From assembly GCF_902616385.1 (NCBI RefSeq), contig NZ_CACMSM010000011.1, positions 1 to 42,003 of the forward strand: a stretch of 42,003 nt of DNA, read 5' to 3'. This document shows, piece after piece, positions 13,661 to 23,392 of the stretch. The notes under the pieces are model-generated. The model had not been told where the DNA came from. It worked only from the letters and a program-made list of their open reading frames with translations, and did no database searches. The position numbers and the translations under genes were made by a program. Source of the DNA: an uncultured Prochlorococcus sp. (lineage in GTDB: Bacteria > Cyanobacteriota > Cyanobacteriia > PCC-6307 > Cyanobiaceae). How positions within the stretch are numbered: the first letter of the stretch is position 1; the number at the start of each line of letters is the position of its first letter.

Positions 13661-14194
13661 TTAAGTTTTTTTAACTAAGTTAACCCTATTTGATTAGTTT
13701 TAGGTTTGAGAAATATTTGCATAGAAAAAACCGAATTAAACAATTTTTCAATGTCATATGACAAAAATTAAAAATTTCAAGTTTAGATTGATTTTTCTTC
13801 ATTTTAATTTTCAATTTGATACATGATGAAGAAAAAAATTTTTAAATTTTTTATCAACATGAGTTTCTGGTATAGATAATTTATCTTTTTTAAAAAGTAA
13901 TGATCCCAAAGTTATAACAAGAGATTATGTAACTTTTTAAACTATATTTTATTTTTTTTGATGAAGTATTAATACTTAAAAATTTTCCTAGAAAAGCTTG
14001 TTTTGATAATGCTCCCGAAGAGTTATCCACTTTTTAAGCTTTTTTCAACAGGTTTTTCCACAATATGTTGATTAAATTTAAATTTCTATGTGCAAAATAA
14101 AATATTATCTTCTTTTTAGAAAAAACTATCCACAAATTTTTTTTGGGATCACTATGATTTCAAATGGTTTAAAATAAATTTAGGAACAAAGCCT
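13661..14194. other. Long AT-rich non-coding stretch
   Basis: No convincing gene here. It contains homopolymeric A/T runs, an inverted repeat TTTTTCTTCA/TGAAGAAAAA at about 13792-13834, and the DnaA-box-like 9-mers listed separately. In a genome this compact more than 500 non-coding bases is unusual. The minus-strand ORF at 14152-14355 has Phe/Leu-rich, low-quality composition and opposes a better plus-strand ORF. Confidence 0.5.
14023..14134. other. Cluster of three DnaA-box-like 9-mers
   Basis: Three sites in the same orientation within 112 bases: TTATCCACT (14023-14031), TTTTCCACA (14054-14062) and CTATCCACA (14126-14134). The middle one equals the form described for cyanobacterial DnaA boxes; the outer two differ by one base from TTATCCACA. 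An AT-rich segment lies between sites two and three. dnaA, dnaN and other origin neighbours are absent, so this is not the classical oriC context. Confidence 0.45.
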
Positions 14195-20059: not shown

Positions 20060-20293
20060 TTAAGATGCTTCAGGGGAAAATATCGTCCTATTTTTTTGCC
20101 AATACTCACAGCCTTTAAGTAAATGATCACCCTGTGGTATGCGTTTCTCGTATTTTGGACAGATCAAGATAGTAGCAAAAGTTTCTGTAGTGCTGTAGCG
20201 AAAGTGATTGCAAGTAATACAAATCTTTGTTCGTTTTCGTTTTAGGGTAGATTCTTTTAGATATTCCCATTTTGACGGATTTACCTTGATCAT
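20060..20293 (-). CDS. Cys-rich zinc-ribbon-like protein in a DUF1651 operon
   Basis: 77 residues with four cysteines: CITCNHF at about 25-31, CPKYEKR at 44-50 and GCEYW at about 61-65, a spacing that could bind one zinc (CxxC ... C ... C). The basic N-terminus (KESTLKRKRTK) would suit nucleic acid binding. Its ATG lies 2 bases after the stop of the upstream DUF1651 gene, so both share the predicted LexA-controlled promoter. Specific family not recognised. Confidence 0.65.
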   Translation of the reverse strand: MIKVNPSKWEYLKESTLKRKRTKICITCNHFRYSTTETFATILICPKYEKRIPQGDHLLKGCEYWQKNRTIFSPEAS

Positions 20294-20295
20294 GA

Positions 20296-20586
20296 TTAGT
20301 GGAATTTATTAGTAACAATTTGCCAACCTCCTGAAAGCAATTCATTCCATGTTTCACTAGCACACTCAATAGAATGAAGTCTTGAATTTTTAATTTGGGC
20401 TGGTTCACCTAATTCATTTGCATAGAAAAGATGAGTATATACTTGTAAGTTATTAGATACAGATTTCTTATAACTCTCAAAAAAAATTAATAAACCACTT
20501 TTTTTGTTAAACAACCAGCCAGTTGGGGGGTCAATAACGCTGCCACGATAAAAATAAGTCCGAACATTAGCAACTCCTGAAGTCAT
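20296..20586 (-). CDS. DUF1651 family protein, copy A
   Basis: 96 residues, matching the marine picocyanobacterial DUF1651 pattern: PTGWLFNKKSGLLIFF, YANELGEPAQIKNSR, then ETWNELLSGGWQ. Function unknown. It is paralogous to the protein at 22732-23031: both start MTxGxANVxTxF and share PxGWL, YANDLGEP/YANELGEP and a late 'W..L...GW'. It is the first gene of an operon with the Cys-rich protein. The promoter and operator (20593-20638) match those of the second copy. Confidence 0.8.
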   Translation of the reverse strand: MTSGVANVRTYFYRGSVIDPPTGWLFNKKSGLLIFFESYKKSVSNNLQVYTHLFYANELGEPAQIKNSRLHSIECASETWNELLSGGWQIVTNKFH

Positions 20587-20592
20587 AAAGAT

Positions 20593-20638
20593 AATACAGT
20601 TGTACTATTAATATAAATGTACTACTCGCAGACGTCAA
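20593..20638 (-). promoter_or_regulatory. Promoter and LexA-box-like operator, DUF1651 copy A
   Basis: Minus strand: -35 TTGACG (20638-20633), 17-base spacer, -10 TATATT (20615-20610), then 3 bases later AGTACAACTGTATT (20606-20593). The last element fits the cyanobacterial LexA consensus RGTACNNNDGTWCB at all but one position and would cover the transcription start. The same arrangement occurs at the second DUF1651 gene. Confidence 0.6.
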
Positions 20639-20706
20639 GTATCCCTCTGATAATTATTTAAATACTAAAATTACTTTCCAGAAATAATCAGTCGTAAGCT
20701 TCTAAA

Positions 20707-21009
20707 TTGGTAATAGTGAATACAAGTAACTCCTTGAAAAGGAAAATATCATTTAAAGAGTATCTCCAAAAGAATGCAATGTATCGAAATCCCTTCTATT
20801 TAGGATGGAACAAAGGTTGGTCTTTTTTATTTTTTTTAGAGGGTGGCATTGCAAAAATTGAAGCAAAAGGTTTTGGTATTTCTATTACAACAAAAGTAGA
20901 GAAAGGAGAATCACCGCTAGAATCTGCGGATAGATTAGTCTCGAAGGAGCAAAGGATTAGAAAATCAAGATATTATTCTTGGGTCAAATCTATTAATGAA
21001 AAAAAATAA
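20707..21009 (+). CDS. Hypothetical soluble protein, 100 aa
   Basis: 100 residues from TTG at 20707; GTG at 20716 is an alternative. No ATG lies nearby. Contains FKEYLQKNAMYRNPFYLGW, a beta-rich centre (GGIAKIEAKGFGISITTKV) and a basic helix ending in Lys residues. No cysteine or membrane helix. Divergent from the DUF1651 copy A operon with a 120-base gap. Family not recognised. Confidence 0.55.
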   Translation: MVIVNTSNSLKRKISFKEYLQKNAMYRNPFYLGWNKGWSFLFFLEGGIAKIEAKGFGISITTKVEKGESPLESADRLVSKEQRIRKSRYYSWVKSINEKK

Positions 21010-21042
21010 ATTAACCAATCCTTAAATTTATAGAGTAATTTG

Positions 21043-21071
21043 TTGACAGTCAATTTAAAATAGAAAATAGT
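21043..21071 (+). promoter_or_regulatory. Probable promoter of the ligase-like operon
   Basis: TTGACA (21043-21048), 17-base spacer, AATAGT (21066-21071). It lies 12 bases before the GTG start of the first gene, so the transcript would have a very short leader. Match to the -10 consensus is 4 of 6. Confidence 0.4.
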
Positions 21072-21083
21072 CATTTATTTTTC

Positions 21084-21341
21084 GTGTCCAATAAATTTTA
21101 TGAATGGTGGAAAAACCATAGAAAAGTTTTAACCTATGGGGCTTTTATTATCTTGTTTGCTTTTTATTTATCTCCTGTTGTCAAAGAAGCAAAATACAAA
21201 AACCAATGTATTAAGTACTCTACTAAAGGAGCTTTAACTAAATTTAATAAGGACGATATAGGAGAAACTTTACTAGAAGAAACAGGTTTGAATATTGATG
21301 AACTAGCAGAGATCGAGGGTTATAAGAATTGCATTAATTAA
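21084..21341 (+). CDS. Small membrane-anchored protein, 85 aa
   Basis: 85 residues with GTG start: a short polar N-terminus (FYEWWKNHRKV), one membrane helix (LTYGAFIILFAFYLSPVV) and a polar tail with two cysteines (NQCIKYS, YKNCIN) that may form a disulfide. Not recognised. It precedes the ligase-like operon and shares its likely promoter, although a weak hairpin separates it from the next gene. Confidence 0.55.
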   Translation: MSNKFYEWWKNHRKVLTYGAFIILFAFYLSPVVKEAKYKNQCIKYSTKGALTKFNKDDIGETLLEETGLNIDELAEIEGYKNCIN

Positions 21342-21344
21342 AAA

Positions 21345-21370
21345 GATCGCAAATATTACGATCAGTTTTT
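21345..21370 (+). terminator. Short hairpin with T-run before the next ORF
   Basis: GATCG (21345-21349) pairs with CGATC (21359-21363), followed by AG and five Ts, with an A-run on the other side. The stem is short, so termination is likely partial; the next ATG (21373) is 2 bases after the Ts. Confidence 0.4.
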
Positions 21371-21372
21371 AA

Positions 21373-21579
21373 ATGATTAAAGGTATGTTTAGACTTATTT
21401 TATTAATATTATTATTTGGACTTATATCAATAAGTCCAAAAACAAGATATTTGGCTGGCATAACTCTAAATAAAATTTCTTCATTTCTTTTATGGACTTT
21501 TAAATATGAAGATAAAGAAAAATGGATTATAGATAAACCAAGTTGGATACTTGACCAAAAACTTAAGCCATCGTATTAA
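21373..21579 (+). CDS. Small membrane protein, 68 aa
   Basis: 68 residues. N-terminal hydrophobic helix (MFRLILLILLFGLISIS) and a second weak hydrophobic stretch (ISSFLLWTF), then a charged, Trp-containing tail (KEKWIIDKPSWILDQKL). Its stop is followed directly by the ATG of the ligase-like gene, so the two are translated as a pair. No family recognised. Confidence 0.55.
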   Translation: MIKGMFRLILLILLFGLISISPKTRYLAGITLNKISSFLLWTFKYEDKEKWIIDKPSWILDQKLKPSY

Positions 21580-22329
21580 ATGAAGACTTATTTAGAAGAA
21601 CGAATTGAATGGTATGACGATAATTATAGAAATGGTAATGCTTTAATCTCTGATAAGCAGTTCGACCAACTTGAAAAAAATTTATTAAGAACAAACCCAA
21701 GTTGTGATTACTTTAAAAAGAAAAATAAACTAGTTTTACCTTCATTAGAAAAGGATTCAATAGATGAATTTTTGAAAGGATTATTAGTAGATACCAGATT
21801 ATTAATTGAACCAAAAATTGATGGTTGTGCTGTTGCTTTACAATATAGGGATGGAAACCTGGAGAAAGCAATTTCAAGAAAAGGGGCAGACGTTACTAGT
21901 AAACTTATTAAAATCCAAGACATTCCCAACAATCTTCCTTTACGAGGAGTTCTTCAAGTTAGGGGTGAATTATATGCACCCAACCAAATTCCAAATATCT
22001 CCCAGAGAATCGCTTCTGGATTTCTAAGAGCTAAAGAAGGATTTTTTGAAAGTCTCAGCTTCTGCGCATTTCAAATACTTAATTCAAAACTTAACCAATA
22101 TGAGTCCAAAAAAAGTCTTTCAAAACTTGGCTTCACGATCCCTCAGGACATTTCATGCAACTTTACGAGTCAAGTTGAAGTGTTTAGAAAACAATGGCTA
22201 GAAGGGAAGCTTTTTATTAAATATCCAACAGATGGAATAGTAGTAAAAATAAATTCTAGAAAATTACAATTGATTAGAGAAAAATCAAATTTAGATTATC
22301 CTTATTGGCAAGTGGCAATAAAACGTTAA
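21580..22329 (+). CDS. Stand-alone NAD+-dependent DNA-ligase-like adenylation protein
   Basis: 249 residues that match only the N-terminal part of LigA. An Ia-like NAD+-recognition segment (YDDNYRNGNALISDKQFD, about 13-30) precedes the adenylation domain: motif I KIDG with Lys79, motif III RGE near 129, motif IV DGIVVK and motif V at the very end (VAIKR). The OB fold, zinc finger, helix-hairpin-helix and BRCT domains are absent; the stop follows directly after motif V. All catalytic adenylation residues seen look intact, so it could adenylate itself, but nick sealing without an OB fold is doubtful. Tightly coupled to small membrane-protein ORFs on both sides. Confidence 0.8.
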   Translation: MKTYLEERIEWYDDNYRNGNALISDKQFDQLEKNLLRTNPSCDYFKKKNKLVLPSLEKDSIDEFLKGLLVDTRLLIEPKIDGCAVALQYRDGNLEKAISRKGADVTSKLIKIQDIPNNLPLRGVLQVRGELYAPNQIPNISQRIASGFLRAKEGFFESLSFCAFQILNSKLNQYESKKSLSKLGFTIPQDISCNFTSQVEVFRKQWLEGKLFIKYPTDGIVVKINSRKLQLIREKSNLDYPYWQVAIKR

Positions 22330-22442
22330 TGGAATTAATACACCAGATTTTTCCTACTTGGCATATCTACTTGGATATGTTTTTGGTTGGCTTTGCAACT
22401 TACGGTTTTCTGAGAATTAAGAAAAAAATAAAAACTAAATAA
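22329..22442 (+). CDS. 37-aa single-helix peptide overlapping the ligase-like gene
   Basis: ATG overlaps the ligase-like stop (TAATG). 37 residues: MELIHQIFPTWHIYL, a hydrophobic segment (DMFLVGFATYGFL) and a basic end (RIKKKIKTK). The direct overlap implies coupled translation. It faces the DUF1651 copy B operon tail to tail. Not recognised. Confidence 0.5.
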   Translation: MELIHQIFPTWHIYLDMFLVGFATYGFLRIKKKIKTK

Positions 22443-22452
22443 AGTTTTTAAA

Positions 22453-22605
22453 TCATCCGTGCTCCTCAAGCATGGATTTAAGTTGTTCGGTATCTAATTG
22501 TTCAAGATAATTTCGCATTGCCAACCAAGATCTTCTGCTTTCTAACTTTCCACTTTGCTTGAATAAATTTGCGGAAACTTGATCTATCAATTCTTTATGA
22601 GTCAT
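22453..22605 (-). CDS. Small helical protein, third gene of DUF1651 operon B
   Basis: 50 residues from the ATG at 22605 (an in-frame ATG further up at 22641 would intrude into the preceding gene and is less likely). Helical, charged: MTHKELIDQVSANLF, LESRRSWLAMRNYLEQL and TEQLKSMLEEHG. The 5' end overlaps the 46-aa gene by 11 bases, so translation is probably coupled. No family recognised. Confidence 0.55.
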   Translation of the reverse strand: MTHKELIDQVSANLFKQSGKLESRRSWLAMRNYLEQLDTEQLKSMLEEHG

Positions 22606-22735
22606 ATTTATATTCTTCATCAAGTTCAATGACAACACCATTAAAAAATTCTGCTAATAATTTTGATGGGTCTTGCATAGATATCTTTCTATCTACTTTT
22701 GATAATTTCTTTTTGATTGGATTTAAGTTAGTCAT
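22595..22735 (-). CDS. Small protein, second gene of DUF1651 operon B, 46 aa
   Basis: ATG overlaps the DUF1651 copy B stop by 4 bases (ATGA). 46 residues: basic N-terminus (NPIKKKLSKVDRK), a middle helix (DPSKLLAEFFNG) and an acidic end (VVIELDEEYKYDS). No hydrophobic helix. Its stop lies inside the next gene. The overlap chain marks a three-gene operon under the LexA-box-like promoter. Not recognised. Confidence 0.5.
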   Translation of the reverse strand: MTNLNPIKKKLSKVDRKISMQDPSKLLAEFFNGVVIELDEEYKYDS

Positions 22736-23031
22736 ACAGATTCAGGTAATTCAAGTTCTTCAAAAGTCCAACCTTCTAATTGAAGGTCATGCCATTTATC
22801 CCAAGCATTATCCAAATACATTTGAGTTGATGATTTAATTGCCATTGGCTCACCAAGATCATTTGCATAATATGTATGAGCAAAAATTCTCATACTATTT
22901 CTTGGAGATTTTTTATTCCTGACAAATAAAATTAATCTGCTGCGGTCTGGGCTAAGCAACCAACCACTTGGGGACTCATTACGATAACCGTAAGAAAAAT
23001 TAGTCCAAACATTAGCTCCTCCTAAAGTCAT
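22732..23031 (-). CDS. DUF1651 family protein, copy B
   Basis: 99 residues; paralogue of the protein at 20296-20586. Family pattern: PSGWLLSPDRSRLILF, YANDLGEPMAIKSS and KWHDLQLEGW. First gene of a three-gene operon whose members overlap by 4 and 11 bases. The upstream promoter and operator copy that of copy A almost exactly. The function of DUF1651 is unknown; the shared regulation hints at a DNA-damage-linked role. Confidence 0.8.
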   Translation of the reverse strand: MTLGGANVWTNFSYGYRNESPSGWLLSPDRSRLILFVRNKKSPRNSMRIFAHTYYANDLGEPMAIKSSTQMYLDNAWDKWHDLQLEGWTFEELELPESV

Positions 23032-23039
23032 TACTTAGT

Positions 23040-23086
23040 AATACATATGTACTATTAATATAAATACATTAGAAATGGATCGTCAA
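23040..23086 (-). promoter_or_regulatory. Promoter and LexA-box-like operator, DUF1651 copy B
   Basis: Minus strand: -35 TTGACG (23086-23081), 18-base spacer, -10 TATATT (23062-23057), then 3 bases later AGTACATATGTATT (23053-23040). It contains the perfect palindrome TACATATGTA and fits RGTACNNNDGTWCB except one base. Spacing between -10 and operator equals that of copy A. Confidence 0.65.
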
Positions 23087-23145: not shown

Positions 23146-23194
23146 AAAAAAAATACCCACCAAAAACCTGTTTTAGCAAGCATTTTGATGGGTA
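23146..23194 (-). terminator. Strong Rho-independent terminator of the purK-side RNA
   Basis: Minus strand: TACCCATCAAAA (23194-23183) pairs with TTTTGGTGGGTA (23165-23154), 12 bp with one T-G wobble, and eight Ts follow (23153-23146). On the plus strand the wobble becomes a C-A mismatch, which supports minus-strand use. Confidence 0.7.
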
Positions 23195-23340
23195 ACACCG
23201 GATCCCCGTCAGTTCTCTGCTGCATCGACCTGGAAATGCCAGTAGAGGATTCAAAGTGGGCTTTCGTTTCCGATTACAAGATCGGTTTACTACCGCATCA
23301 CGACAGTCTCCTCATGTCGAAATAGAGTCAGATCAGAGCA
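23154..23340 (-). ncRNA. ssrS: Structured RNA downstream of purK, probable 6S RNA
   Basis: No ORF covers this GC-richer island. Long-range pairs close it: TGATG/CATCA, GGTA/TACC, ACC/GGT and GATC/GATC (23186-23204 with 23280-23300), interrupted by small bulges, enclosing a terminal stem CTCTGCTG/CAGTAGAG (23215-23247). A separate hairpin CGACA/TGTCG lies at 23301-23319. A rod with a central bubble fits 6S RNA, which in cyanobacteria lies near purK as I recall. 6S RNA binds RNA polymerase holoenzyme. Ends and strand are not proven: the minus strand is chosen for the terminator and shared orientation with purK, but a TTGACA-16-TAAATA promoter on the plus strand (23092-23119) is the alternative. 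Confidence 0.5.
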
Positions 23341-23392
23341 CATAAAGAAGAACTTAACCAAAGATCCAGCAATTTAACTCTAACTTATTTTT

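Follow-up and report, generated by a model that had tools for sequence, protein, structure and literature searches.

The closest described system is the LexA regulon of cyanobacteria, marine lineages included, whose described members recA, lexA, and umuDC are read against the operator consensus RGTACNNNDGTWCB (Kolowrat et al. 2010, PMC2921402; Li et al. 2010, PMC3091678). For Prochlorococcus, the role of the SOS response was said in 2010 to be yet to be established (PMC2955971). DUF1651, a family described as limited, among bacteria, to marine cyanobacteria, includes the cyanophage-induced genes PMM0684 and PMM0819 of strain MED4 and SYNW1658, SYNW1944, and SYNW2106 (PMC2518516; PMC5490813). 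A stress or phage role has been proposed for it, and as of 2017 no clear reason was seen for cells to retain DUF1651 genes whose expression rises in phage infection (PMC5490813). Here we analyze 42,003 nt of an uncultured Prochlorococcus genome (assembly GCF_902616385.1, contig NZ_CACMSM010000011.1, positions 1 to 42,003; the window), which holds two DUF1651 operons that are very probably SOS operons under LexA control, judging from their promoters. They resemble the marine LexA regulon in operator class, in the position of the box within the promoter, and in sharing the core of the lexA operator itself. DUF1651 operons are not named in the LexA regulon passages of the two 2010 papers, although the supplementary tables of Li et al. 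may list them.

Both operons lie on the minus strand with near-identical promoters, one headed by a type A gene (20586-20060) and one by a type B gene (23031-22453). Their features, in window coordinates, are as follows.

20633-20638, minus strand: unit A -35 element, TTGACG; TTGAC is present in 86 of 86 type A upstream regions
20610-20615, minus strand: unit A -10 element, TATATT, 17 nt from the -35 and conserved
20593-20606, minus strand: unit A operator 1, AGTACAACTGTATT, a LexA-type box (sequence and conservation)
20610-20623, minus strand: unit A putative second box, AGTACATTTATATT, overlapping the -10; near-invariant across the 86 type A upstream regions
20296-20586, minus strand: DUF1651 gene of type A, 96 aa (Pfam PF07864, 3.7e-14)
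20060-20293, minus strand: Cys-rich protein, 77 aa, 2 nt after the type A gene; four-Cys and zinc-ribbon-like by eye
23081-23086, minus strand: unit B -35 element, TTGACG (sequence and conservation)
23057-23062, minus strand: unit B -10 element, TATATT, 18 nt from the -35 (sequence and conservation)
23040-23053, minus strand: unit B operator, AGTACATATGTATT, a LexA-type box (sequence and conservation)
22732-23031, minus strand: DUF1651 gene of type B, 99 aa (Pfam PF07864, 3e-10); adjoins 6S RNA and purK, like PMM0684 of MED4
22595-22735, minus strand: 46-aa protein, overlapping the type B gene by 4 nt
22453-22605, minus strand: 50-aa protein, overlapping the 46-aa gene by 11 nt

The PF07864 bit scores of 53.3 (type A) and 40.8 (type B), against a curated cut-off of 22, place both proteins in DUF1651. 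The promoter-operator common to the two units reads TTGACG-17/18-TATATT-AAT-AGTAC-N3-TGTATT, the box beginning 3 nt downstream of TATATT with AAT between, just as a reading of the sequence alone had claimed. Both operators deviate from RGTACNNNDGTWCB at position 13 alone, with T for C. That sequence-only reading had counted this base as a miss common to both operators; the identity of the base holds, while its description as a deviation does not, since lexA's own operator carries the same T. The sequence RGTAC-N3-TGTATT stands upstream of lexA at 30 of 30 Prochlorococcus loci (29 with GGTACAAATGTATT and one with GGTACTAATGTATT), and GGTAC-N3-TGTATT does so in 24 of 24 genomes from 15 other genera; the published MED4 lexA site is likewise GGTACAAATGTATT (PMC3091678). 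By this comparison, T at position 13 is the marine lexA operator's own sequence and no flaw.

The strain encodes lexA (TIGR00498, 2e-54), and its product carries Ala-Gly at 89, GDSM at 121, and LKY at 163, which are cleavage-type motifs; such residues are required for LexA self-cleavage (PMC2921402). Within the genus, lexA scores above cut-off in 39 of 41 genomes, and the other two (G004 and G025) give shorter matches only. The operator class of the DUF1651 units is also found at lexA and recA of this genome.

The sequence AGTACNNNTGTATT has two exact matches in the window, against 0.01 expected, and none of 100 shuffles reaches two; both matches are the DUF1651 operators. A one-mismatch fit to RGTACNNNDGTWCB, which the sequence-only reading had offered as an argument for LexA, proves nothing on its own and was rejected as evidence: it matches six times in the window, four of these being both strands at the two DUF1651 operators, against 4.81 expected, and 39 of 100 shuffles reach six. 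Across the 1.5-Mb assembly the full promoter-operator pattern matches only units A and B, with none in the backward control. The looser pattern RGTACNNNDGTWYB gave 34 strand hits where the backward control had 31, with most of the 28 loci read falling inside ORFs and three hits lacking a locus, and was dropped for the tighter RGTACNNNNGTAYT. The latter occurs at 13 places (14 strand hits, against three in the backward control), of which seven are placed in promoters: those of recA, lexA, three DUF1651 genes, and two small ORFs. The remaining six fall inside ORFs. The third DUF1651 gene (C2:118778), absent from the earlier reading, has TTGACA..TATAAT..AGTACAAACGTATT. The recA site is the symmetric AGTACAGATGTACT, and umuD has a near-site, AGTACATATATACT, one base outside the RGTACNNNNGTAYT pattern.

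DUF1651 is found in 41 of 41 genus genomes sampled, with copies counted among the matches listed. We scored upstream regions with a matrix built from 11 published sites; these include lexA sites, and the matrix hence favors T at position 13. In the DUF1651 branch to which the window's genes belong, all 73 distinct genus upstream regions examined (duplicates and ORFs under 70 codons left out) score at least 11.8, and 61 of them exceed 14.9 (99.9th percentile; 1,460 shuffles). None of 29 genus upstream regions of the other DUF1651 branch (FWLINSN type) reaches 8, and of 130 further ORFs in these regions none reaches 11.8, the best scoring 8.2. All 102 distinct type B and 86 type A upstream regions could be anchored, with no failures; the anchor pattern itself demands a loose box and many genomes are close relatives, so that the half-site figures that follow are conditional. 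Among 96 distinct type B 77-mers, AGTAC and GTAT are each present in 96 and the final T in 95; among 86 distinct type A 77-mers, AGTAC and GTATT are invariant. The spacer bases between the half-sites vary in both types. The second box of type A, likewise missing from the sequence-only reading and near-invariant as TAGTACATTTATATT over the -10 in the 86 upstream regions, may be a further operator, with an imperfect right half (ATATT).

Relatives detected by the branch profile occur in 29 of 81 family genomes and 16 of 34 genera, Prochlorococcus included. Outside the genus, a box is present at P ≤ 0.01 in 27 of 42 upstream regions and at P ≤ 0.05 in 29 (200 dinucleotide shuffles each). lexA is present in each of the 24 other-genus genomes in which DUF1651-like genes occur, so there is no lexA-less genome for comparison. 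Several of these genes are preceded by symmetric, recA-like boxes (L213, L254, L255, L257, L258, and L260), for example AGTACATATGTACT (L213), AGTACGTATGTACT (L254), and AGTACATGTGTACT (L257). In one genome (G084; L216, G084:C6) the DUF1651 gene lies ∼190 nt downstream from a umuC match, in the same orientation, and its own box, AGTACATATGTATT, is located between the two.

The same operator can be set against published phage-infection data from MED4. One sampled genome (G005) is MED4, because its Rfam matches to 6S RNA (652620-652804) and Cyano-1 (654509-654576) agree in position with the published yfr7 (652625-652844) and yfr3 (654511-654604); PMM0684 is the next gene after yfr7 (PMC1242208). 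PMM0684 is a DUF1651 gene at 652944-653243, and the first base of its box, AGTACACCTGTATT, lies 22 nt before the ATG. PMM0685, which with PMM0684 belongs to the group-2 phage-induced genes (PMC2518516), is probably the 76-aa Cys-rich ORF at 653377. PMM0819, also phage-induced (PMC5490813), is probably the MED4 type B gene at 774456-774755 with the box AGTACACATGTATT, since that gene adjoins hli-like ORFs and PMM0817 is annotated hli (PMC1838522). Both DUF1651 genes named as phage-induced in MED4 thus appear to carry the box, and the simplest explanation for their induction would be DNA damage by the phage, relayed through RecA and LexA. LexA has no occurrence in the main texts of PMC2518516 and PMC5490813; the link is proposed here. 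Full-text literature likewise gave no LexA link for DUF1651, PMM0684, PMM0819, or the SYNW names, although a locus tag may have been listed earlier in supplementary material, and the main text of the mitomycin C study of Synechococcus, which names recA, lexA, and umuC, has no occurrence of SYNW1658, SYNW1944, or SYNW2106 (PMC3744912).

We propose that a LexA dimer sits on AGTAC-N3-TGTATT and would block RNA polymerase, since the box starts three bases downstream of the -10, so that it spans the site where transcription is expected to begin; in unit A the second box over the -10 may tighten repression. DNA damage or a lytic phage, by way of single-stranded or broken DNA, would give rise to RecA filaments and LexA self-cleavage, and with LexA gone the short, mostly overlapping DUF1651 operons, with their 46-aa, 50-aa, or Cys-rich partners, would be transcribed. 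Sequence comparison supports the operator, the promoter, the matching sites at lexA and recA, and the conservation across genera, and phage induction of MED4 relatives comes from published work; LexA occupancy, RecA-driven release, and an effector role for the products are what we infer.

Might some other, lineage-specific repressor bind AGTAC-N3-TGTATT, its likeness to a LexA site being due to convergence or shared ancestry? The right half of the box gives some cause to ask, as the symmetric GTACT is found in none of the 182 distinct type A and type B 77-mers, unlike the recA site. However, lexA's own promoter has the same asymmetric core at every genus locus and in every other-genus genome examined, and DUF1651-like genes of other genera carry symmetric boxes of the recA kind, so that we consider a separate repressor improbable. 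We give even less credence to a reading in which the units are constitutive or otherwise driven and the box merely survives, without present function, from the duplication of an ancestor under LexA control. The units are paralogous, and one ancestral promoter would have been copied along with the genes, but the half-sites are invariant (bar one final base) over 96 type B and 86 type A upstream regions while the spacer is free to vary, which indicates continuing selection.

Besides the bias of the scoring matrix, several points weigh against LexA control. Some boxes are weaker, such as those of one type A gene (L067, 11.8) and of the third MED4 copy (12.1), the shuffled 99th percentile being 11.3. 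No box at P ≤ 0.05 precedes 13 of the 42 homologs from other genera, although every genome concerned has lexA; control was thus gained or lost within the family. Prediction taken alone is a poor guide to response: of the predicted LexA genes of two Synechococcus strains, mitomycin C raised no more than 15 of 27 in one and 10 of 46 in the other (PMC3744912). In Prochlorococcus PCC9511, UV made hardly any difference to lexA mRNA (PMC2921402), while in MED4 recA increased after UV exposure (PMC2955971). PMM0686, described as the host mRNA with the strongest induction in phage infection (PMC2518516), is probably the ClpS-like gene of the same MED4 region and has no site scoring at least 11 upstream; phage induction may therefore have another cause. 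On balance, the presence of lexA, the small number of promoter-placed sites, and the conserved boxes strongly support LexA control of both units as the sequence-only reading had suggested it. Such a shared operator would connect the question of SOS in Prochlorococcus with that of the retained, phage-induced DUF1651 genes and would assign a regulon to the family. It would also provide a narrower site definition, with RGTAC-N3-TGTATT included, for predicting marine LexA targets; a refined LexA site definition has been said to be possible (PMC3744912).

What the proteins do was approached through predicted structure. For type B the AlphaFold model reached pLDDT 77 and pTM 0.68, and for type A 78 and 0.68; the alignments behind the two overlap in part. 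Each model comprises four strands, one helix, and one short strand, and confidence is low over the first 16-17 residues. For both of these 38-percent-identical paralogs the PARP1/PARP2 WGR domains, which bind DNA breaks (PF05406), rank first. The type B model has a best Z of 5.7 (rmsd 3.2, 73 aligned), its top four rows being WGR and the first unrelated row scoring 4.5; the type A model has a best Z of 6.9 (rmsd 3.8, 78 aligned), with the top 13 rows WGR and the first unrelated row at 5.5. All of these values are below 8, where Z can reflect a common arrangement. The single-stranded DNA-binding folds of Pur-alpha and PC4 fall below WGR by Z; they are prominent near the top of the Foldseek PDB lists, and Foldseek gave no match at E ≤ 0.001 in PDB for either model or in BFVD for type B.

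Sequence comparisons do not extend the likeness in predicted fold. All 10 members compared with the WGR profile (PF05406) hit DUF1651 and none hit WGR at E ≤ 10, a search limited by HMMER filters that drop most matches above about 0.1. Profile-profile comparison by hhalign with 12 WGR sequences from the cyanobacterial phylum was not significant (Prob 0.3 to 1.7 percent); column shuffles reached the observed score in 0 of 60 cases for the other branch, 4 of 60 for other genera, 8 of 60 for the window's branch, and 0 of 60 for all together. By eye, the window's branch has no W-G-R motif, its central strand bearing Y-[AT]-N where the other branch has G-[RKI]-I-x-G. With Z under 8 and neither Pfam nor the profile comparison in support, DUF1651 is better described as having a predicted WGR-like fold, and as a possible DNA binder, than as belonging to the WGR family.

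Our guess for the effector, much less certain than LexA control and more likely wrong than right, is a small WGR-like protein that binds nucleic acids and acts at broken DNA. The chances are about even that DUF1651 is instead an adaptor, a protease partner, or a factor exploited by phages and that only its regulation belongs to SOS, a view that competes with the effector step alone. Pfam, PDB-sequence, and PHROG searches point to nothing beyond DUF1651 and chance level (the PDB sequence search gave a single hit, E 0.52; the best PHROG values were 0.02 for the Cys-rich ORF and 0.44 for type B, with none for type A), and the insignificant WGR profile comparison agrees with them. A Synechococcus mutant in a DUF3387-DUF1651 operon also showed altered phage infection, and DUF1651 was proposed to benefit the phage (PMC5490813). 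Against this stands the agreement of two models of diverged paralogs, which both rank PARP WGR domains at the top. More speculative still, and rather unlikely, is the idea that DUF1651 is a stand-alone WGR-like binder of broken DNA that was multiplied and placed under LexA in marine picocyanobacteria, so that phage attack or UV would fill the cell with proteins that bind DNA ends, along with the small partners of these proteins. If that were true, the cyanophage-induced DUF1651 host genes would be a plain SOS readout, tolerated or used by phages.

A phage origin of the family finds no support: tblastn of a protein from either branch against 50,697 phage records gave no match. A coliphage with a DUF1651 domain has been named (PMC5490813). 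One IMG/VR contig, putatively viral (L267:3940-4579), ends with unit B, including the same promoter, box, DUF1651 gene (91 percent identical), 46-aa gene, and 50-aa gene.

The earlier view that the units share only DUF1651 and its control region proves too narrow, as the small partner genes recur in varied combinations. Across the window, 40 further regions, and the L267 contig, patterns find 38 copies of the 46-aa gene (4-nt overlap with DUF1651 in 34) and 31 of the 50-aa gene (11-nt overlap with the 46-aa gene in 28). DUF1651 is followed by the 46-aa and Cys-rich genes in MED4, L099, L094, and L095, by the 46-aa and 50-aa genes in L100, L101, and L103, and by the Cys-rich gene in L102. The partners are one pool, redistributed among duplicated DUF1651 heads. 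The 77-aa Cys-rich ORF has no match in a Pfam search; it is found in the genus, at 42, 68, or 85 aa in some genomes, where it is thus shortened or frame-shifted. The 50-aa ORF, read as 62 aa, has a weak PADLOC match (PDC-S26, E 0.0017). A DUF1651 gene of the other branch (L002, G000:C22:16264) lies 11 nt after a gene that, like the MED4 ORF near its DUF1651 operon, we take to be ClpS-like.

Between the two units, on the plus strand (21580-22329), the window encodes a stand-alone protein of 249 aa with the adenylation domain of an NAD-dependent DNA ligase (Pfam, 7.5e-20) and, by eye, a KIDG motif; this gene sits between the units in 30 of 30 regions with adjacent types A and B (the window, L066-L093, and L097). 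Unit B adjoins 6S RNA (23191-23375, minus strand), and the cyanobacterial sRNA Yfr17 is at 13907-14171 (minus strand).

Elsewhere in the assembly, LexA-like boxes precede two further short ORFs. At G000:C9:24050-24063, AGTACAGATGTATT and an adjacent imperfect AGTAAATCTGTACT stand directly before a 68-aa ORF (L020:1286-1492, minus strand). At G000:C4:75442-75455, a box precedes a 76-aa ORF (L016:1265-1495, minus strand) whose product probably spans the membrane once and has a conserved C terminus containing Cys, for example PESPEQLASICEKHN..ACQVW in one relative. Its [AG]GTAC-N3-TGTATT box is present in its own genome and in all eight relatives found (one of the same genus and seven of other genera), and one possibility for the product is a membrane protein induced in the SOS response, for instance a division inhibitor.

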